Assembly (NCBI GenBank): GCA_902801425.1
Contig: CADCIQ010000032.1
Coordinates: forward strand, 1 to 37,583
DNA from: an uncultured Bacteroidales bacterium
GTDB lineage: Bacteria > Bacteroidota > Bacteroidia > Bacteroidales > Bacteroidaceae
Reading direction: 5' to 3'
DNA: 37,583 bases
In this document: one piece after another, positions 3,848 to 28,884 of the stretch
Position numbering within the stretch: the stretch's first letter is position 1
Layout: every line of letters begins with the position of its first letter
Notes under the pieces: generated by a model
Told to the model about the DNA's origin: nothing
What the model saw: only the letters and a program-made list of their open reading frames with translations
The model's database searches: none
Translations under genes and position numbers: made by a program

Positions 3848-4083
3848 CACAAAGACGCAGAGGTTAATAATCTCCGCGTCTTTGTGTCTTTACGTTTGAA
3901 ATAAAAAAGATAATCCGCGAATAACAAAAAGCACTTGTTTCTTCATTTCGCTAAGATAAAGACTAAAAACGCAAGAAATCGTTATAGTTTCCACATTAAA
4001 GCCCCCTGTTTTGTTAAAATATCTAAAAATATGACTATATAATAAGGTGTACGCAATTTTTTGTTTACTTTTGCGCCTCAAAA
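3848..4083 (+). repeat. 236-bp direct repeat, right copy (topA upstream region)
   Basis: Counterpart of 2769-3004. It contains a hairpin (3846-3862 with 3872-3889) and the promoter box ahead of topA. It is probably the ancestral copy, because topA is a core gene. Confidence 0.85.
4066..4073 (+). promoter_or_regulatory. Likely promoter of topA-aroK-speA
   Basis: The -7 box TACTTTTG lies about 30 nt before the topA ATG. No TTTG is evident at -33. Confidence 0.55.
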
Positions 4084-4102
4084 GAACAAACATAGAAATA
4101 TT

Positions 4103-4567
4103 ATGCAAGAAAACTTGGTAATTGTGGAGAGCCCGGCTAAGGCTAAGACCATTGAGAAATTCCTTGGCAAGGACTATAAGGTGATGTCCAGCTACGGACA
4201 CATCCGCGATCTAAAGAAGAAGGAAATAAGCATTGATCTCGATACCCTCATGCCGGTATATGAAATACCTGACGAGAAGAAGCGCGTGGTCAATGATTTG
4301 AAGGCTAACGCCAAAAATGCAAAGAAGGTTTGGCTGGCATCCGATGAGGACCGCGAAGGAGAGGCTATCTCATGGCACCTTTGCGAGGTTCTCGGACTTG
4401 ACGAGAAAAAGACAAGCCGAATCGTGTTCCATGAGATTACGAAGAATGCTATTCTTGAGGCTATTCAGCATCCACGTCAGGTTTCAACCTCTCTCCTGTG
4501 CTTTGGCGTAAGGTTAAGCCATCACTCTCAGCAGGTCGCGTGCAGAGTGTGGCTGTACGTCTTATAG
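4103..4567 (+). CDS. TopA N-terminal fragment (Toprim domain)
   Basis: The reading frame as written gives 154 residues. The first ~126 are genuine TopA; the rest is out-of-frame sequence after the deletion. It lacks the active-site tyrosine and should not function alone. Confidence 0.6.
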   Translation: MQENLVIVESPAKAKTIEKFLGKDYKVMSSYGHIRDLKKKEISIDLDTLMPVYEIPDEKKRVVNDLKANAKNAKKVWLASDEDREGEAISWHLCEVLGLDEKKTSRIVFHEITKNAILEAIQHPRQVSTSLLCFGVRLSHHSQQVACRVWLYVL

Positions 4568-6366
4568 TAGAACGCGAGCGCGAGATTCAGGCGTTCAAGT
4601 CTGAGCCTTATTTCCGCATCAACGCTATCTTTGCCATCAAGGATGCTGCGGGCAACACAAGCGAGATACGTGCAGAACTTGACAAGCGTTTCACCACGCA
4701 CGAAGATGCTGTTGCTTTCCTTGAGAAGTGTCGCAAAGCTAAGTTCACTATCGACTCTATTAGCAAGAAGCCTCTCAAGCGTACTCCAGCCCCTCCTTTC
4801 ACCACCTCTACCCTTCAGCAGGAAGCAGCGAGAAAGCTCGGTTTCACCGTGTCACAGACCATGATGGTTGCCCAGCACCTCTATGAGAACGGTCATATCA
4901 CATATATGCGTACCGACTCAGTGAACCTCTCACAGCTCTGCATCGGCACATCAAAGGATGCTGTCATCAAGATGTATGGCGAGGAATACAGCAAGCCACG
5001 CAATTACAGCACCCACACCAAGGGAGCACAGGAAGCCCACGAGGCTATCCGCCCAACATATATGGAGAATACATCCATAGAGGGTACGCTTCAGGAGCGT
5101 CGTCTCTATGAACTTATCTGGAAGCGCACAGCCGCTACACAGATGGCAGATGCCCAGATTGAGAAAACAACCGTGAACATCAGCGTTTCTGATACTGACG
5201 AGCAGTTCATCGCAACTGGTGAGGTCGTAGTCTTTGACGGTTTCCTCAAGGTGTATCGCGAGTCTGACGGTGATGACGACAACGACAAGAACAACGAGGA
5301 GGCAGGCTCTATGCCAGCTTCAATGAAGGAGGGCGACACAATCGAGCGAGTACAGATCACATCACTTGAGCGTGCATCAATGGGACCTATCCGCTATACT
5401 GAGGCATCACTCGTTCATAAGCTTGAGGAACTTGGCATTGGCCGTCCATCTACATACGCCCCAACAATCTCTACCATTCAGCAGCGTGAATACGTTCAGA
5501 AGGGCGATAAGAAAGGCGAGGAGCGCGAATACACTATCGACACTCTCAAGGGCAATAGCATCAAGGCTTCAAAGAAGACCGAGATGGTTGGTTCAGAGAA
5601 GGGTAAGCTCCTTCCTACTGACATAGGAATCGTGGTTAACGACTTCCTTATGGAGTATTTCCCTGGCATCATGGACTATAACTTCACAGCTAATGTCGAA
5701 GAGAAATTTGATAGTATTGCCGAGGGCAAGGAGAACTGGTCAAAGATGCTCAAGGACTTCTACAAGGACTTTGCCCCTGAGGTAGAGAAAACTATCAACT
5801 CACGTTCTGAACATAAGGCAGGTGAACGCGTTCTCGGTGAAGACCCAAAGAGCCACAAGCCAGTATCTGTAAAAATAGGTCGTTTCGGACCTGTCGTACA
5901 GATTGGTAGTGCAGAGGACGAGGAGAAGCCACGCTTCGCACAACTGCCTAAGGATAAGAGTCTTGAAACAATCACTCTTGAAGAGGCACTTGAGCTTTTC
6001 CGTCTGCCTCGCACACTTGACGAGTTCGAGGGCGAAACTATCACAATCGGCGCTGGTCGTTTTGGTCCATACGTGCAGCATAACCGCAAGTACGTTTCTA
6101 TCCCTAAGGATATGGACCCTCTTACCATCACCCGTGAACAGGCTATCGAACTTATTGAGAAGAGCCGCGACCAGGAGAAACAGCGTCATGTGAAGACCTT
6201 CGAGGAAGATGCAGAACTTGAGGTGATGAATGGTCGCTACGGTCCATACATCTGCTACAAAGGCAAGAACTACCGTATGCCGAAGAATATGCACGAGCGT
6301 GCCGCTGAACTCACATACGAGCAATGTATGGAAATCGTAAACACACCGGTAAAGGCCAAGAAATGA
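4498..6366 (+). CDS. TopA C-terminal fragment (catalytic Tyr and C-terminal repeats)
   Basis: Open frame from a GTG at 4498; genuine TopA sequence extends back to about 4480. It carries LSAGRVQSVAVR, PFTTSTLQQEAARKLGF, ITYMRTDSVNLS (active-site Tyr), GAQEAHEAIRP and the C-terminal repeats, but not the Toprim metal site. The GTG is an internal Val codon of the intact gene, so independent initiation is doubtful. Confidence 0.65.
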   Translation: MLWRKVKPSLSAGRVQSVAVRLIVEREREIQAFKSEPYFRINAIFAIKDAAGNTSEIRAELDKRFTTHEDAVAFLEKCRKAKFTIDSISKKPLKRTPAPPFTTSTLQQEAARKLGFTVSQTMMVAQHLYENGHITYMRTDSVNLSQLCIGTSKDAVIKMYGEEYSKPRNYSTHTKGAQEAHEAIRPTYMENTSIEGTLQERRLYELIWKRTAATQMADAQIEKTTVNISVSDTDEQFIATGEVVVFDGFLKVYRESDGDDDNDKNNEEAGSMPASMKEGDTIERVQITSLERASMGPIRYTEASLVHKLEELGIGRPSTYAPTISTIQQREYVQKGDKKGEEREYTIDTLKGNSIKASKKTEMVGSEKGKLLPTDIGIVVNDFLMEYFPGIMDYNFTANVEEKFDSIAEGKENWSKMLKDFYKDFAPEVEKTINSRSEHKAGERVLGEDPKSHKPVSVKIGRFGPVVQIGSAEDEEKPRFAQLPKDKSLETITLEEALELFRLPRTLDEFEGETITIGAGRFGPYVQHNRKYVSIPKDMDPLTITREQAIELIEKSRDQEKQRHVKTFEEDAELEVMNGRYGPYICYKGKNYRMPKNMHERAAELTYEQCMEIVNTPVKAKK

Positions 6367-11800: not shown

Positions 11801-11832
11801 TTTGGTGAAATGAGAAAGAATGATTAATTTTG
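11801..11832 (+). promoter_or_regulatory. Promoter of the coiled-coil/nuclease operon
   Basis: TTTG (11801-11804), a 20-bp spacer and TAATTTTG (11825-11832) match the consensus exactly. The leader to the ATG at 11930 is about 90 nt. Confidence 0.78.
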
Positions 11833-11929: not shown

Positions 11930-12583
11930 ATGACTATAAAAGAAAGCCTAACCAAAATACTTCTTGGAAGAAACATAAACAAAGAACTGGCAACAGCCGT
12001 AGAGGAGAACCATAAGGCACATGACGAGTATAATAATGCTTGTCAAGATAATAATGCGCTCAAAGAAAGACTGAGCGACTTAACTGAATCTTTAAAATCA
12101 CGTACCGAAAGTCTCGCATCTTTAATAAAGGAAAACGAAAGACTCGACTCACATCTTTCACAATTAATGGAAATCAAAGCAATAGATGAAGCACAAGAAT
12201 CGTTAGAAAACATATTAAATGACTATAAGACTAAATTGAACAATTTAAAGGCCAATTTAAATAATAATGAACAAGAACATTATAAACTTCAAAGGCAATT
12301 GGAAAAAATCCAAGATGAAAAGATAAATTTAGATTGTGATATAGAGATACTAAATCAAAAAATAGAATCATCAAAGAAAGAGAGAGAACAACAAATAGGA
12401 AACATATTAAATCAACGAAAAAATATCAAAGAAACCCTTGCTACTCATAAAGAAAAGTGGCAAGCGAATATAGAAGAATTTAATATAAAGATAGTAAATG
12501 CTAACAAGCTAGATCTCTTGGAATTACGACATAAATGTGATGATTACGAAACAAAAATTAAAAACGCTATTGAAACAAAATGA
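11930..12583 (+). CDS. Coiled-coil protein, first gene of a candidate defence operon
   Basis: A protein of 217 residues, almost entirely heptad-patterned coiled coil from about residue 17 to 210 and rich in K, E, N and L. No enzyme motif is visible. Its N-terminus (SLTKILLGRNINKEL) resembles that of the next gene (QIIRFILGRDTNAIL), and both then have QDN(N/S)A(L/I)K about 25 residues later, so the two proteins probably share a docking or oligomerisation module. The stop overlaps the next start by 4 nt, indicating translational coupling. A-rich codon use (AAA, AAT, ATA) differs from the core genes and suggests acquisition. I do not recognise a named family. Confidence 0.7.
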   Translation: MTIKESLTKILLGRNINKELATAVEENHKAHDEYNNACQDNNALKERLSDLTESLKSRTESLASLIKENERLDSHLSQLMEIKAIDEAQESLENILNDYKTKLNNLKANLNNNEQEHYKLQRQLEKIQDEKINLDCDIEILNQKIESSKKEREQQIGNILNQRKNIKETLATHKEKWQANIEEFNIKIVNANKLDLLELRHKCDDYETKIKNAIETK

Positions 12584-15500
12584 TGAAACAAATTATTCGA
12601 TTTATATTAGGAAGGGACACAAACGCCATCCTAAACAAGATTCAGTCATACAAGGATGAGACTTCCCAAATCGAGTCTCAACATAAATCCTTGTTACAGG
12701 ATAATAGCGCAATAAAAAAGAGTATAGACAACTGTGAAAAAAATGTGCATACTATCTCACAAGAAATAGATCAACAAAATAGTAAAATATCTGAGAAACG
12801 TTTTAAATGCGAAACATTAGATAATATCACCAAAACAAAGGAAGATATTTCTGACTATGAGAAAAGAATGAATGAATGCACAGCAAACATTCACAGATTA
12901 AAGCAATCTGTAGATTCTCTTATTGAAGAGATAAACAAACAGAATGAGCGTAAATCTGAACTGGAAGCCCGATACAAAGAGCTCAATACAGACATAAATG
13001 AAACAATTACAAACATTGATGAGTACAGAAGTGTCAATTCTGAAATAAAGAATATTCAGGATTGGCTTCTAACGCATAGTGCCGAATTAACAGGCATTCA
13101 GAAGAAAATCAACACCCGCATACAAGAAATAGAAGATACTGAGCAAAGGATTGATATAACAAACAACGATCCTAAAGCCAAAGAGAAAAAACAAAATGTC
13201 AGCATTCCCATCGAAGATAATGATAAACCAGAAACGAAGGCTGTAAAAGATTCTGTACAAAGGGGAAGTGAAAATTCTTTCCCAAATGAATCCGTAGAAG
13301 GAAAACGAAAGAAGCGTGATAGGAAAATCAAAGAGATTTTCGACATGAAAACAGGTGAAACCATCTTGGCTGATCAATTCTTTGAACAGCCAATAAACGA
13401 ACTTGTAAGATGGCGTTCTATTTTTCAAGAATGCATATCAAAAGACGAACACCGTTTCATTTGCCCGAACTGCCTTGAGCAGATTCGCATATCTGGTCAA
13501 GGTGACGAGCGCGGTATTCCTTCCATTTTCACCCACAAAAATGATAGCGTAGATTGCACTAAGACAACAACAGGACTTTCAGTAGAAGAAATCAATAAAA
13601 GAAAATACAGTCTGGTTGGTCAAAGCTTACGTCACAAAGAGCTGAAGAACATTATTAGTGATTTTTTAAAAGACGAAGGAAGCGTAGCCATTGGGATTAA
13701 GAATGTAGAAACAGAGAAACGTGTTTATAGTTCACTTCCATATTTCAATTGGAGACAACCAGACATACAGATTGAATACAAAGACTGCAAAATTGTGTTT
13801 GAGATTCAACTTTCAACCACATTTCTCAGCGTCATTACGGAGCGTGATACCTTCTATCGTCTAAACAACTATTACATCATCTGGGTATTTAATTTCGATG
13901 ATAACAAGAAATACGTTGACTTAAACAATCTGGCAATAAAAGATATATATTTCGCAAACAAACGCAATGCTTTCATCTTTGATCAGGATGCATCACAATG
14001 GAGCAAAGAAAGAAAACAACTCGTACTAAAATGCAACTGGGTTGATACAAATTCACAATGGCACTATCCCAATACGTCAGAACGCATTGGTGGAGAACCT
14101 GTGACACTTGAACAACTAAAGTTTGATGAGCAAAGTCTAAAGCCTTATTATTTTGACGCGGAAAAGCCATACTTTGAGGAACATCCCGAAATGGCAGAAC
14201 GTTTTGCAGTTGAGCAACGAACAAGGGAAGAATATATCAAAGAGTTAGAGCAAAAAGCAGCCGAAAAAGAGACAAATCGTCAAACTGCTATTGAGAAGAT
14301 GAAAGCAACTGGAGAAAGTGTTATTGCGTATAAGGAAAAGACAAAATTCGGTTTCAAATATGGAACGACTGATATTATTGAACCACATTTCACTTCTTGC
14401 GAAGAAAGAGATAATGGCACATTCATCGTTGGATATAACAAAAAGAAAGGATTGGTGAATCAATATGGAGAGATAATTCGAGAATGTAAATATGTAAACA
14501 TACATTCTTTATCAGGCAATGCCTATCTTGCTGAAGACCTAAATTATTTCTGGCTATGCAACATACAATCTTACTTTAGAGGGCGCACAACAGGCGACAA
14601 AGTAATATCCACCCAAACTAACAAAAGAGTTGAAAAGGTTGAATTATTTCATCGCAATGGGGCATCTCCCTTCTGTCGTTTCTATGTATTAGACGGACAT
14701 AAATTATTGGCAGAAATAGATTGTAATAATGTTTTCGTAGATATTGATGGAAATAAGATCGTCGATGAACAATTCATAAATATGAGATTCTTATCGGACA
14801 ACATGATTCGTGTTCAACGGAAAAGAGATCATCTATGGAATGATATGGACTACGATGGAACATTTCTTTCTAATTGGACTAAATACATAAGCATAGAACA
14901 ATGGGGAAATGGACTTCAAATTGGGGAATATCAAACAGAAAAAAACTGGTATTCGTATAGTAAAAAATATTTCGATATTATTAGTACCAATGGTCAAATT
15001 ATATCTGGTGGTATCTCATCCATCGGAAAACTAATCAATGGCAAGGCTCAAGCAATCATTAATGGAATTCAAGCAGAAATTGGAGCAAATGGAGAATTAA
15101 TACCGGAGCAAGAACTTCAATTCCCCAACAATTATACAGCTATAAAACGTCTTGGTTATTGGAAACTAACGAATCAGGAAGGAAAGGATATCATAACCTA
15201 CAAAGAAAACATCAGCAGCATAAATTATCTCAATAATGATTTGTTCATTATAAAAAAACATAATAAATTTGGTCTTGTAGGTTCTAATGGCATCATTATC
15301 CAATGCCAATACGACTCCTTTGTCCCTTGGGCATCGGGAATATTTAAAGTATGCAGCAATGGATACCAAGAACTAAAAGACGAATCAGGCAAAGCTATAG
15401 GTAATAGATATAATGAAATAGGAAATTTAGAAGATGACAAAGCAAAAGTTTGTTACAGAAAAGCAACAGGACATATTGATGCAAAAGGTATGCCTATTCC

Positions 15501-16179
15501 TGATGTTGAAATAAAACTGACAGACGGTTTCGTAAAATATGGATTTATGATGAAATGGGGTCTAAAAGATTCTGTCGGTAAAAATGTTTTAAACTGTGAA
15601 TATATGGATATAACATCATTTCATGGATATTACTATGCAATTACATTAGATGGAAAACTTAAAAGAACAAATACAAAAACACAAAATGTTGTTCCCGTAA
15701 AAGGACGTAAGATAAAAGAAACAAAAAGTAGCATCATATATAATGTCGGAAATATGAATCTCTTAGTTCGTCTAACTATGGCTAAAAAAATATGGAATGA
15801 CCAAATACCAGATACAGCTGATTTGCTAATCACACATATAAACAAAGAACACAAAAAAAGTGGACGATACCATTATACCAATCTTCACATATATGCAAAA
15901 CCATATTCTCAACAAGAAAAAGAAATGGAATCAAACAACAATAAAAAAATTGATATAGATGAGATTGTAAACGGAGTTATTGTTAAGGTCAAGAATGGAA
16001 GTGCCATTGTTAAACTTGATGATGGAGCAACCATTTTTATACATAAAAGTTACTTTAATAACAATGTAATTAATGGTGAAAACAAAGGGCATAATATAAC
16101 AGTCAAAATGATTGGATTTGATAATGTACACAAAAAAGAAAAATGGGAGATAATAGAATTAAGTGCTCCTCAAGTGTAA
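12580..16179 (+). CDS. Multidomain coiled-coil / CoiA-like nuclease / WG-repeat / S1-domain protein
   Basis: A protein of 1199 residues. About 5-195: coiled coil preceded by the ILGRDTN motif shared with the upstream protein. About 198-256: charged linker. About 285-450: nuclease-like domain resembling CoiA and DUF6035 proteins: C295-P-N-C298, FTHK (H319), DC (C326), LVGQSLRHKELK, QPDIQIEYKD (D395), FEIQLS (E408-I-Q410) and ERDTFYRLNNYYIIWVF. The D..ExQ pattern fits a PD-(D/E)XK-fold variant, and the Cys/His set may bind zinc. About 585-1090: WG-like repeats (TKFGFKYG, KKGLVNQYG, NKFGLVGSNG, MKWGLKDSVG). About 1125-1199: S1/OB fold (GVIVKVKNGSAIVKLDDGATIFIHKSYF). The architecture suggests a nucleic-acid sensor-effector. 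Function is inferred, and I know of no characterised system with this order. Confidence 0.78.
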   Translation: MMKQIIRFILGRDTNAILNKIQSYKDETSQIESQHKSLLQDNSAIKKSIDNCEKNVHTISQEIDQQNSKISEKRFKCETLDNITKTKEDISDYEKRMNECTANIHRLKQSVDSLIEEINKQNERKSELEARYKELNTDINETITNIDEYRSVNSEIKNIQDWLLTHSAELTGIQKKINTRIQEIEDTEQRIDITNNDPKAKEKKQNVSIPIEDNDKPETKAVKDSVQRGSENSFPNESVEGKRKKRDRKIKEIFDMKTGETILADQFFEQPINELVRWRSIFQECISKDEHRFICPNCLEQIRISGQGDERGIPSIFTHKNDSVDCTKTTTGLSVEEINKRKYSLVGQSLRHKELKNIISDFLKDEGSVAIGIKNVETEKRVYSSLPYFNWRQPDIQIEYKDCKIVFEIQLSTTFLSVITERDTFYRLNNYYIIWVFNFDDNKKYVDLNNLAIKDIYFANKRNAFIFDQDASQWSKERKQLVLKCNWVDTNSQWHYPNTSERIGGEPVTLEQLKFDEQSLKPYYFDAEKPYFEEHPEMAERFAVEQRTREEYIKELEQKAAEKETNRQTAIEKMKATGESVIAYKEKTKFGFKYGTTDIIEPHFTSCEERDNGTFIVGYNKKKGLVNQYGEIIRECKYVNIHSLSGNAYLAEDLNYFWLCNIQSYFRGRTTGDKVISTQTNKRVEKVELFHRNGASPFCRFYVLDGHKLLAEIDCNNVFVDIDGNKIVDEQFINMRFLSDNMIRVQRKRDHLWNDMDYDGTFLSNWTKYISIEQWGNGLQIGEYQTEKNWYSYSKKYFDIISTNGQIISGGISSIGKLINGKAQAIINGIQAEIGANGELIPEQELQFPNNYTAIKRLGYWKLTNQEGKDIITYKENISSINYLNNDLFIIKKHNKFGLVGSNGIIIQCQYDSFVPWASGIFKVCSNGYQELKDESGKAIGNRYNEIGNLEDDKAKVCYRKATGHIDAKGMPIPDVEIKLTDGFVKYGFMMKWGLKDSVGKNVLNCEYMDITSFHGYYYAITLDGKLKRTNTKTQNVVPVKGRKIKETKSSIIYNVGNMNLLVRLTMAKKIWNDQIPDTADLLITHINKEHKKSGRYHYTNLHIYAKPYSQQEKEMESNNNKKIDIDEIVNGVIVKVKNGSAIVKLDDGATIFIHKSYFNNNVINGENKGHNITVKMIGFDNVHKKEKWEIIELSAPQV

Positions 16180-16187
16180 ATATGGTA

Positions 16188-16230
16188 AGTCCGTTGTAGT
16201 TCCGTTGTAAATCCGTTGCAAGTCCGTTCC
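16188..16230. repeat. 11-bp tandem repeat (TCCGTT units)
   Basis: Four imperfect units of about AGTCCGTTGTA. The following 16231-16290 is rich in GAGCGAAGG/GCGGAGG-like units. Similar pieces recur at 31531-31604 in a partly inverted arrangement. Confidence 0.6.
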
Positions 16231-16340
16231 AGCTCCAATCGAGAGAGCGAACCCAGAGCGAAGGCACAGCGGAGGCATAACGAAGGCAGAAGGAAACTTT
16301 CTTTATACAACAGGACTTATACGGCAAAAGTAAAAAAATA

Positions 16341-16538
16341 AAAGTTTTTGCGAAGGGGGTTACACCCGACGCTAAAAATCGGCTTTTAGGCGTTGATAAT
16401 CAAGAACTTATAACGGGTGTAACCCCCTCTGAAAATCGAGATTGATTTTAGAGGGGGTTACACCCATTCTTAGTCTCTGATTATCAAGATATTACACCAC
16501 AAAATCAGGGATGGGTGTAACCCCCTTCGCAAAACTTT
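16341..16538. repeat. Nested long palindrome 1
   Basis: Outer arms 16341-16367 and 16513-16538 differ by a single-base indel. An inner hairpin pairs 16415-16437 with 16444-16465. The 13-mer GGGGGTTACACCC thus appears four times in alternating orientation. Between arm and hairpin is another imperfect stem near 16369-16393. It lies between the convergent nuclease and MATE genes and may terminate both. Confidence 0.85.
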
Positions 16539-16555
16539 TGAAAAAATTATTGGGG

Positions 16556-27018: not shown

Positions 27019-28884
27019 ATGGCAAACGAGGCTAAAACATCGCAGCTTTTTAGAAAGCTCTTGAAAGAAAAGGGATACTACGATGACAAAGATATCATCG
27101 TAGAAGAGCAGCAAACCGACAATAAAAAACTGGCAAAACTCTTGCAAAATGCTTCAAAATCAGGCGCAGGCAAGGGATTCCCTGATTTCATCATTACTTG
27201 TGGTCGTTATCCTGATCTTGTAATCCTGGTGGAGTGCAAGGCAGACACAAAGTATCATGAGTCGGCGACACTTGATTCATTTCGTGAGTATGCCATCGAT
27301 GGTGCATTGCTATATGCATCGTTTGTATCAAAGGAGTATGATGTCATTGCCATTGGTTTTAGCGGTGAGAAGGCTTCATTAACAAGGCAGAGTCACTATA
27401 TCCAGTTAAACGGCGAGAAGGATTACCATCAACTTTTCAACGAGGGGGAACTGCTCGATATAGACAGCTACCACCATGGCTTGATGCAGAGCACCTTTAA
27501 ATTCAATCAGGATTTCAACAAATTGATTGACTATACAAAGGAGGTGAACGAGGAACTTCAAAACAAGAAAATCAAAGAGCGACTACGTGCCTTGCTTATC
27601 AGCGGAATCCTGATAGCTCTGAAAAACGAACGGTTCAAGGCTGAGTATAAAAATTACCATACAACTCAATTGCTTGTTTGCAATCTGTTTAATTCTATCG
27701 TTGCTGAACTTGAAAAGAGTGACGTGCCGGAAAGAAATAAAAAATCTCTTATAAAAGGCTTTGAGTTTATCACAACAAATCAAAGTATCAATAATCCCAC
27801 GGCGGAAGGAAAAAGGTATCTGACCGACCTAATTTCAAATTGTAACAGCAGAATCAATGGTTTTAATGTCACCCATAAGTATATCGATACAATCAGCCAG
27901 TTCTATGTAGAGTTCCTGCGCTATGCCAACAACGACAAGGGATTGGGAATCGTGCTTACTCCTCCACATATTACTGAGCTTTTCTGCGAACTGGCACAGA
28001 TTGACAAAGACAGCGTGGTGCTCGATAATTGTGCTGGAACTGGCGGATTCCTAGTCAATGCAATGAAGAAGATGCTGGAGGATGCTAATAGCGACATTTC
28101 CAAGGAGCAGCACATCAAAGATTGGCAACTCGTGGGCATAGAGTTCGATGAGGAAATTTACACATTATTGATTTCTAATATGATCGTACATCGTGATGGT
28201 AGAACAAACATCTTCTGGGAAGACTGTTTCCAGACAGAGAAGAATGCCATAAAGGAAAAGTTCCATCCCACGGTGGGATTGCTAAATCCACCTTATAAAA
28301 ATAAAGGCAAGGGAATCGAAGAACTTGAATTTGTGTTGAACAATCTATCCATGTTGGAAAAGGGAGGTATATGTATCGCTATTATGCCCATGAGTTGTGT
28401 GATAGACACAAAAGGAGAATCCTATCTACTCAAGAAGAAAATACTTGAAAATAACACACTTGAAGGTGTATTATCAATGCCAGAGGAGCTGTTTTATAAC
28501 TCAAAAGTGAATACTGTTACATGTGCAGTAATCATTAAAGCAGGTTATAAGCATCCAGCAGGTTATAAGACCTGGTTTGGCTATTGCCGTAATGACGGTT
28601 TTGAGAAACGAAAAAACAGAGGAAGAATAGACGTTAATCACACATGGCCTGATATCAAGAAAAAGTGGGTGAACGCCTTTTTAAACAGAGACGAGATAGA
28701 AGGGTTCAGCATAAAGCAGCACGTAACAGCAGAAATGGAATGGTGTGCAGAGGCATATATGACGACCAACTATGACCAACTGACAGAAGACGATTTTCTG
28801 CAAACCGTAAGGAACTACTATCTTTTCGGTCTGAAATGTGCGCAATCACAGGATGATGAACTTAAAGAGGAGGAACTGCAATGA
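27019..28884 (+). CDS. Fused endonuclease / N6-adenine methylase, BcgI-like A subunit
   Basis: A 621-residue protein. The N-terminal ~150 residues carry a PD-(D/E)XK nuclease: GKGFPDFII (P55-D56), then LVECKAD (E72-C-K74). Residues ~290-560 are a gamma-class N6-adenine methylase with SAM motif LDNCAGTGGF (L335-) and catalytic NPPY (423-426), and a C-terminal region. Size and order match BcgI-type (type IIB/IIG) RM subunits, about 640 residues as I recall, rather than a plain type I HsdM. It pairs with a specificity subunit overlapping by 4 nt. Such enzymes methylate and cut, with BcgI cutting on both sides of its site. No separate HsdR gene is present, consistent with fusion. Confidence 0.85.
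   Translation: MANEAKTSQLFRKLLKEKGYYDDKDIIVEEQQTDNKKLAKLLQNASKSGAGKGFPDFIITCGRYPDLVILVECKADTKYHESATLDSFREYAIDGALLYASFVSKEYDVIAIGFSGEKASLTRQSHYIQLNGEKDYHQLFNEGELLDIDSYHHGLMQSTFKFNQDFNKLIDYTKEVNEELQNKKIKERLRALLISGILIALKNERFKAEYKNYHTTQLLVCNLFNSIVAELEKSDVPERNKKSLIKGFEFITTNQSINNPTAEGKRYLTDLISNCNSRINGFNVTHKYIDTISQFYVEFLRYANNDKGLGIVLTPPHITELFCELAQIDKDSVVLDNCAGTGGFLVNAMKKMLEDANSDISKEQHIKDWQLVGIEFDEEIYTLLISNMIVHRDGRTNIFWEDCFQTEKNAIKEKFHPTVGLLNPPYKNKGKGIEELEFVLNNLSMLEKGGICIAIMPMSCVIDTKGESYLLKKKILENNTLEGVLSMPEELFYNSKVNTVTCAVIIKAGYKHPAGYKTWFGYCRNDGFEKRKNRGRIDVNHTWPDIKKKWVNAFLNRDEIEGFSIKQHVTAEMEWCAEAYMTTNYDQLTEDDFLQTVRNYYLFGLKCAQSQDDELKEEELQ

Follow-up and report, generated by a model that had tools for sequence, protein, structure and literature searches.

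We analysed the contig CADCIQ010000032.1 of an uncultured Bacteroidales bacterium over its entire length of 37,583 bases (hereafter the window), which belongs to a draft genome of 3.93 Mb that is 86.5% complete and 6% contaminated. The forward strand of the window carries two overlapping genes, here called A and B, whose products are probably a CoiA-like nuclease (B) and its dedicated coiled-coil partner (A) within a set of exchangeable conflict modules. Gene A (11930..12583) encodes a coiled-coil protein of 217 amino acids (aa) with the N-terminal motif KILLGRNINKEL. Gene B (12580..16179), also on the forward strand, encodes a protein of 1199 aa that consists of a coil, DUF7830, a DUF6035/CoiA-like nuclease, WG repeats and an S1-like part. 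The stop codon of A and the start codon of B overlap in the four bases ATGA (12580..12583), and in all three full-length relatives A lies directly upstream of B with the same overlap, which makes four of four with the window. A–B is a real, conserved and translationally coupled pair.

A Bacteroides-type promoter, TTTG-N20-TAATTTTG, is located at 11801..11832 on the same strand, with its end 97 bases upstream of the A start codon. It fits the Bacteroides promoter consensus. This strict pattern occurs three times in the window, once inside B, against 0.28 occurrences expected from shuffled sequences. A scan of the window for generic sigma-70 promoters was uninformative, with 24 found and 23.4 expected. 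The composition of the pair is adenine-rich, and the guanine-plus-cytosine (GC) content is 0.30 for A and 0.34 for B compared to 0.416 for the window. The first-pass annotation of this DNA had described an overlapping two-gene pair with its own promoter, and the open reading frames (ORFs), the ATGA overlap and the promoter pattern agree with that description.

Domain architecture of A and B

The N-terminal part of B (residues 1-190, 12580..13149, an approximate extent) comprises the motif FILGRDTNAIL and a coiled coil, recognized by periodicity over residues 18-190 and by matches to SMC/Rad50 coils. It is followed by DUF7830 at residues 259-331 (13354..13572), which scored 32.4 bits at a curated Pfam cut-off of 27.5. 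With C295, C298, H319 and C326 this part is zinc-ribbon-like and presumably binds zinc. Residues 347-526 (13618..14157) matched DUF6035 (PF19500) with 47.7 bits (cut-off 22.6), and residues 392-463 matched CoiA_nuc (PF06054) with 27.6 bits (cut-off 20.3). The catalytic-type residues are D395, E408 and Q410, with codons at 13762-13764, 13801-13803 and 13807-13809. The presumed WG-repeat region covers residues 566-1110 (14275..15909); its sole matched stretch in Pfam is residues 904-928 (15289-15363; WG_beta_rep, 36.9 bits, cut-off 25.6), and the extent beyond that stretch was derived from the alignment. WG repeats might be propeller-like. Near the C-terminus, residues 1125-1176 (15952..16107) are S1/OB-like with a score of 20.3 bits, below the Pfam cut-off of 22. 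Thus, of the domain order given in the first-pass annotation the coil, the Cys/His cluster, the nuclease and the WG part were recovered, and the C-terminal S1 domain stayed below threshold.

The nuclease core of B shares both the profile matches and the PD...E-x-Q pattern of the DUF6035/CoiA nuclease-like proteins, and it is likely CoiA-like with a predicted PD-(D/E)XK fold. D395, E408 and Q410 as well as C295, C298, H319 and C326 were invariant in an alignment of seven B-family proteins (7/7), which together with the scores above bears out the CoiA-like core proposed earlier. In 17 divergent DUF6035 rows the three ribbon cysteines, one histidine (H109 in alignment numbering) and the proline preceding D were all invariant, and D, E and Q were retained in 16 rows, the exception being L037 (L-numbers refer to loci of relatives and G-numbers to genomes). 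The rows L089, L037 and L088 were added to the nuclease-core alignment later. A sequence search of the PDB with B and with the core alignment as queries gave no meaningful relative. Two DUF6035 relatives that lack D, E and Q, L037:9096-13124 and L089:8932-12330, are possibly inactive nucleases.

Seven further B-family proteins were scanned for domains, with L032 B left out of the WG and S1 scan. WG repeats scored above cut-off in L005, L033, L034, L035, L043, L085, L089 and L007, with 12 stretches in L089 and 14 in L043. A C-terminal S1 domain was above cut-off in L007 (35.6 bits) and L043 (71.3 bits). Both WG and S1 fade in the clade of paired B proteins described below, and DUF7830 of L031 B scored 26.0 bits, under the cut-off of 27.5.

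In Pfam, PADLOC and NCBIfam, protein A matched coil-type models alone and weakly, and no DNA-binding domain was matched in it with Pfam. The matches of B to SMC/Rad50 models cover coil stretches only; in the three collections, ATPase head domains of the SMC/Rad50/JetC type were matched in neither A nor B. Periodicity in the heptad range was equalled by 1 of 300 shuffles for A residues 20-217 and by none of 300 for B residues 18-190. In the controls, B residues 250-560 were equalled by 205 of 300 shuffles and B residues 566-1199, at the edge of the range, by 0 of 300. Because this WG-region control also beat all 300 shuffles, the periodicity test alone is not specific.

At the start of both proteins there are a hydrophobic stretch and a motif resembling LLxGxDI. 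Over residues 1-60 the local similarity between A and B scored 55 compared to a shuffled mean of 27 (standard deviation 5.2), and 2 of 2000 shuffles reached this score. The motif is also present in homologues of both proteins and in single-chain forms, for example those of L005 and L033, so that the resemblance between the two N-termini noted in the first-pass annotation is well founded. The same annotation had taken a QDN(N/S)A(L/I)K block as a sign of assembly. This reading was rejected since the block is not conserved in the alignments of the three closest relatives.

Distribution and neighbours of B-family proteins

A search of 398 genomes of the genus with a B-family alignment gave matches in at least 32 genomes at an expectation value (E) of <=1e-10; at most two candidates were scored per genome, which makes these counts lower bounds. 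In 15 of the 32 the match is to the nuclease part, with E<1e-100 in 11 cases, and in the remaining 17 it is to the WG part only. At the family level B was matched in 4 of 201 genomes (E<=1e-10) and at the order level DUF6035 was matched in 9 of 393 genomes, with the window's own genome included in both counts. Full-length relatives of B, about 50% identical, occur in G686, G720 and G702, which belong to the same genus as the window. Homologues of A and B thus co-occur in conserved order in every full-length case. Intact A was found in 4 of the 398 genomes (the window's and three others), always directly before a full-length B; since the A alignment was built from these four sequences, their detection is by construction. 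The same search returned no unpaired intact A among the 398 genomes, and G861 gave a match of only 31 residues.

In a tree of 21 nuclease-core rows the four paired B proteins formed one clade (100/100), sister to a 2101-aa single-chain protein of L005 (98/97). This relative (L005:6348-14201) has a very long coil, a nuclease and WG repeats. It is followed by an ORF of 432 aa that has no Pfam match and can be aligned to the C-terminal part of B, and the other neighbours are a WYL gene, a DEDDh-type exonuclease (PDC-S48-like) and an uncharacterized gene of 404 aa.

The 11 genomes matched at E<1e-100 constitute the set with a coil-bearing B, the window's genome being one of them. Conflict-type genes adjoin the coil-bearing B in 9 of the 10 other genomes, and the tenth locus (L087) ends inside B at a contig end. 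L034 and L036 have shared flanks and count as one location, which reduces the nine to about eight. DUF1848 is found near B in six of the ten (L030, L031, L034, L035, L036 and L086), PDC-M16A/B with TOTE-named domains in two (L032 and L085) and a TOTE primase-helicase in one (L033). As background, 38 of 200 genomes of the genus carry DUF1848 at any position, five of them being among the genomes with a coil-bearing B, and 15 of 130 have PDC-M16B, mostly as weak matches.

The paired locus L030 contains DUF1848, a DEAD/RecQ-like helicase of 1371 aa, two smaller proteins (one coil-like with 132 aa, the next with 182 aa), A, B and an SLFN_AlbA_2 gene. In L031 the set is DUF1848, a UvrD-like helicase whose N-terminus is WG-like at a score below cut-off, TerB, A and B. 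The set of L032 is TerB, PDC-M16B (DUF7017 and S1CSD-TOTE), PDC-M16A (TBP-TOTE below cut-off), A and B. A single-chain B followed by PDC-M16B and PDC-M16A is present in L085. In L034 as in L086, B is accompanied by a methyltransferase-like gene, a UvrD-like helicase, another gene, DUF1848 and an AlbA_2-type gene; the set of L036 is similar and partly diverged. L035 carries an ADP-ribosylglycohydrolase, B, DUF1848 and a DEAD helicase of 1893 aa, one part of which is WG-like but scored below cut-off. In L033 B is accompanied by an SLFN_AlbA_2 protein, a small gene and the TOTE-type primase-helicase. An SLFN_AlbA_2-type gene 58% identical to the B-adjoining one of L033 also lies near L037.

Between L032 and L085, PDC-M16B is 77% and PDC-M16A 60% identical, and the B proteins at these loci are of different clades. 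The presence of similar PDC-M16 genes beside B proteins of two clades indicates that parts were exchanged. Besides DUF1848 and the 132-aa coil-like gene, G861 has a helicase with 83% identity to the L030 helicase; A is reduced to a stub, and the B-family search did not find B in this genome. The A–B module is separable: G861 has the operon with a stub of A and without B, and the window has A–B alone.

Of 72,556 plasmid records, 32 carried a relative; 23 of these matches are annotated as 'DUF6035 family protein', and the core alone again gave 32. One of 50,697 phage records carried a relative. The 17-row core alignment matched three viral contigs, and viral scans with the B alignment, a 4-row core and the A alignment gave no match. 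Four contexts were examined: in Pontibacter the relative adjoins a RES/Xre toxin-antitoxin pair and an AbiEii-type gene, a second one lies on a Prevotella plasmid, in Acidovorax a type I restriction subunit is a few kb away, and in a Vibrio phage the relative is at one genome end within a few kb of the integrase. Three plasmid members that were examined have 614, 470 and 1466 aa, with the nuclease starting within 20 residues of the start and without an N-terminal coil; compared to these, A–B adds the coil and gene A.

The proteins of L007 and L043, from other Bacteroidales, carry DUF7830, DUF6035/CoiA_nuc, WG and S1 in the order of B and all above cut-off. They differ from B by the lack of an N-terminal coil and by stronger WG and S1 matches, and in L007 no A-type gene was recognized directly upstream. 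The existence of such coil-less nuclease-WG-S1 relatives means that B is not a lone protein type. No Pfam, NCBIfam or PADLOC model covers the pair, which partly supports the earlier suggestion of an undescribed system. Directly before the nuclease-WG-S1 protein of L007 there is a 350-aa gene without Pfam or PADLOC match (L007:6910-7962), located downstream of mobilization-like genes as judged by eye, which is possibly the partner in that variant.

TOTE-named domains stand beside coil-bearing B in L032, L085 and L033 (TBP-TOTE below cut-off only), whereas no TOTE-named domain (AEP-TOTE, TBP-TOTE, S1CSD-TOTE) was matched in A or B. Both components of the PADLOC candidate PDC-M16 adjoin A–B in L032 and the single-chain B in L085, but A–B matches none of its PADLOC models and M16B was not found in the window's genome. 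The loci with DUF1848 recall RTasDUF1848 of PADLOC, but no reverse transcriptase domain was found among the Pfam-scanned neighbours of B relatives, and the window's genome is without DUF1848. According to the excerpt of PMC9519451, E. coli defence systems include a protein with a CoiA domain, a protein that joins a coiled coil to a DNA binding/cleavage domain, and a fusion of a beta-propeller with an Mrr-family nuclease domain. The CoiA-domain protein, likened here by description only, has the CoiA-type domain in common with B and a reported function in phage defence; it is from E. coli, and the excerpt mentions neither an A-type partner nor a WG/S1 part. A search of a limited literature collection found no paper on TOTE conflict, on WG repeats with CoiA, conflict or phage nuclease, on DUF1848 defence, on TerB combinations or on PDC-M16, and for DUF6035 it returned a passing mention only.

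Proposed function and rival explanations

We interpret A–B as a two-gene, horizontally moving nuclease module that may act against invading genetic elements. We give this reading a probability of about 0.58, with defence as the likeliest, though unproven, role. Support for defence is weak from the window and better from the neighbours of relatives. The first-pass annotation had argued for defence from other nuclease genes in the window; that argument failed because the restriction-type genes lie about 9-11 kb off among housekeeping genes, and the conflict-type genes beside relatives now speak for the role instead. In the proposed mechanism, A and the N-terminal coil of B would pair in parallel from the shared N-terminal motif, and this coil would hold one or more copies of the zinc-ribbon and CoiA-like PD-(D/E)XK nuclease of B. 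The WG and S1-like parts may serve as sensing arms that dock on a nucleic-acid intermediate or a partner helicase. Recognition would release metal-dependent cleavage of invader nucleic acid via D395, E408 and Q410. In relatives the module could be the effector of helicase-centred conflict loci, either DUF1848 with a DEAD/UvrD helicase and sometimes TerB, or PDC-M16/TOTE.

Some support for a paired coil comes from L032. Compared to L030, L032 A is without residues 97-156 (60 aa) and L032 B without residues 95-146 (52 aa). With the window as reference, the gap in L032 A was 50-54 residues ending at 146 in three of four gap settings. The matched gaps, one event noticed post hoc, suggest the pattern expected of a parallel in-register A–B coil.

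Several observations weigh against the defence module. With the window as reference, the gap in L032 B at 95-146 appeared at the strictest gap setting only, its placement being setting-dependent, and L031 provides a counter-case in which A is 23 residues shorter than L030 A and B is almost unchanged. A coil-bearing B occurs without A in 7 of the 10 other genomes, and A is therefore not essential to the family. The supposed sensing arms, WG and S1, were unmatched by Pfam in the paired L030 B and L031 B, and the S1 score of the window's own B is under the cut-off. D, E and Q are lost in L037 and L089, and Q alone is lost in L088 where D and E are kept, so nuclease activity is not universal in the family. 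PADLOC matches of B are to coils only. The pair has no defence neighbour in the window, and its own genome, at 86.5% completeness, gave no DUF1848, no S1CSD-TOTE-1 (PF22708) and no PDC-M16B. Finally, the PDC-M16 and DUF1848 loci are themselves only candidate systems.

A more specific proposal, which we put forward tentatively and consider doubtful, is that A–B would be an exchangeable and so far undescribed effector of helicase conflict systems of the TOTE/DUF1848 type. Its nuclease would sit on a heterodimeric coil of matched lengths, the WG part would dock on WG-bearing helicases (L031 and L035, below cut-off), and the module would also be able to work alone as in the window. We lowered our estimate for this proposal somewhat because WG and S1 were unmatched in the two paired relatives scanned. 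If it were true, the unproven helicase-centred candidates (PDC-M16/TOTE and DUF1848 loci) would gain a common, directly testable effector, effector and helicase parts would be traded as cassettes, and CoiA-like nucleases, with one E. coli defence case in the excerpt of PMC9519451, would extend to a two-protein coiled-coil form in Bacteroidota.

The CoiA_nuc match above cut-off, a coil resembling those of SMC/Rad50, and the RecQ-like, DEAD and UvrD helicases that adjoin relatives could also indicate an accessory of DNA repair or recombination comparable to the competence protein CoiA, in which the nuclease trims intermediates and the coil works in SMC/Rad50 fashion. This explanation is unlikely in view of the sporadic distribution (15 of 398 genomes in the genus matched the nuclease part), the low GC content, the differing neighbours at most loci, the lack of an ATPase head and the DUF6035 relatives on plasmids, viral contigs and one phage genome end. 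We attach a similarly small probability to a toxin-antitoxin-like arrangement in which B is a host-toxic nuclease restrained by the upstream coil protein A and freed during infection. The small-then-large gene order with overlap and the occurrence of intact A only beside B are in its favour; however, no DNA-binding domain was matched in A, 7 of 10 other genomes have a coil-bearing B without A, and the shared N-terminal motif and the paired coil deletion better fit a structural partner.

The pair might instead serve a mobile element (an integrative element, plasmid or prophage) in the exclusion of rivals or the processing of its own DNA rather than in host defence as such. Relatives on plasmids (32 of 72,556 records), in three viral contigs and near the Vibrio phage integrase are consistent with this, as is the position of L007 downstream of mobilization genes, as read by eye. 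We nevertheless hold it to be quite unlikely, since close relatives adjoin defence-type genes and no integrase or mobilization gene was noticed in the window by eye, no systematic search having been made. Least probable by our estimate is a non-catalytic RNA-binding or scaffold complex with the WG and S1-like parts as its working parts and the nuclease fold as a relic or binding module. The distant relatives L037 and L089, which lack D, E and Q, and the 12 WG stretches of L089 would suit such a complex, but the catalytic-type residues are all kept in the window and six other alignment rows, and WG and S1 are precisely what fades in the paired clade.

Other features of the window

A type IIG restriction-methylation gene at 27019-28884 was identified with PADLOC (E 6.8e-181). 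It is overlapped by the following gene of 335 aa, which takes the span to 29888 and could be its specificity partner. At 1091-2554 a protein of 487 aa is encoded with DUF4357 and a weak HSDR_N match in Pfam and with matches to the PADLOC candidates PDC-S14/PDC-S57; a perfect Bacteroides-type promoter pattern precedes this gene at 950-981. A defence island in the window was rejected given the distance of about 9-11 kb between these restriction-type genes and A–B and their position among housekeeping genes. The intervening genes in one direction are topA, shikimate kinase, speA and argB, and in the other direction there is a MATE-type transporter (identified by eye). TOTE-type primase, TBP or S1CSD domains were found in none of the 11 window proteins scanned with Pfam, and PDC-M16 components had no match in the 10 scanned with PADLOC.

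In an empty-site test the 3' flanks beside MATE homologues of G602, G623, G641, G594 and G588 (5-14 kb each) held no other window gene at E<=1e-10. The flanks of the pair in L030, L031 and L032 likewise held no window gene except A and B. Because these flanks hold no shared window genes, synteny gives no clean empty site.

Just past the stop codon of B, at 16187-16236, there is a tandem repeat with an 11-base period in four overlapping copies. Between B and the MATE-type gene, at 16341-16539, we observed nested inverted repeats with 27-nt arms, 93% complementary and 145 nt apart, and additional 42-nt arms. The cluster contains four copies of GGGTGTAACCCCCT or its complement and resembles a small palindromic or miniature inverted-repeat transposable element (MITE)-like element. 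The GGGTGTAACCCCCT motif was detected in 3 of 167 loci searched, all covering the same place, 16341-16539. DNA topoisomerase I (4061-6366) is present in two frames, an N-terminal ORF of 168 aa and the remaining 622 aa, due to either a real frameshift or an assembly error.

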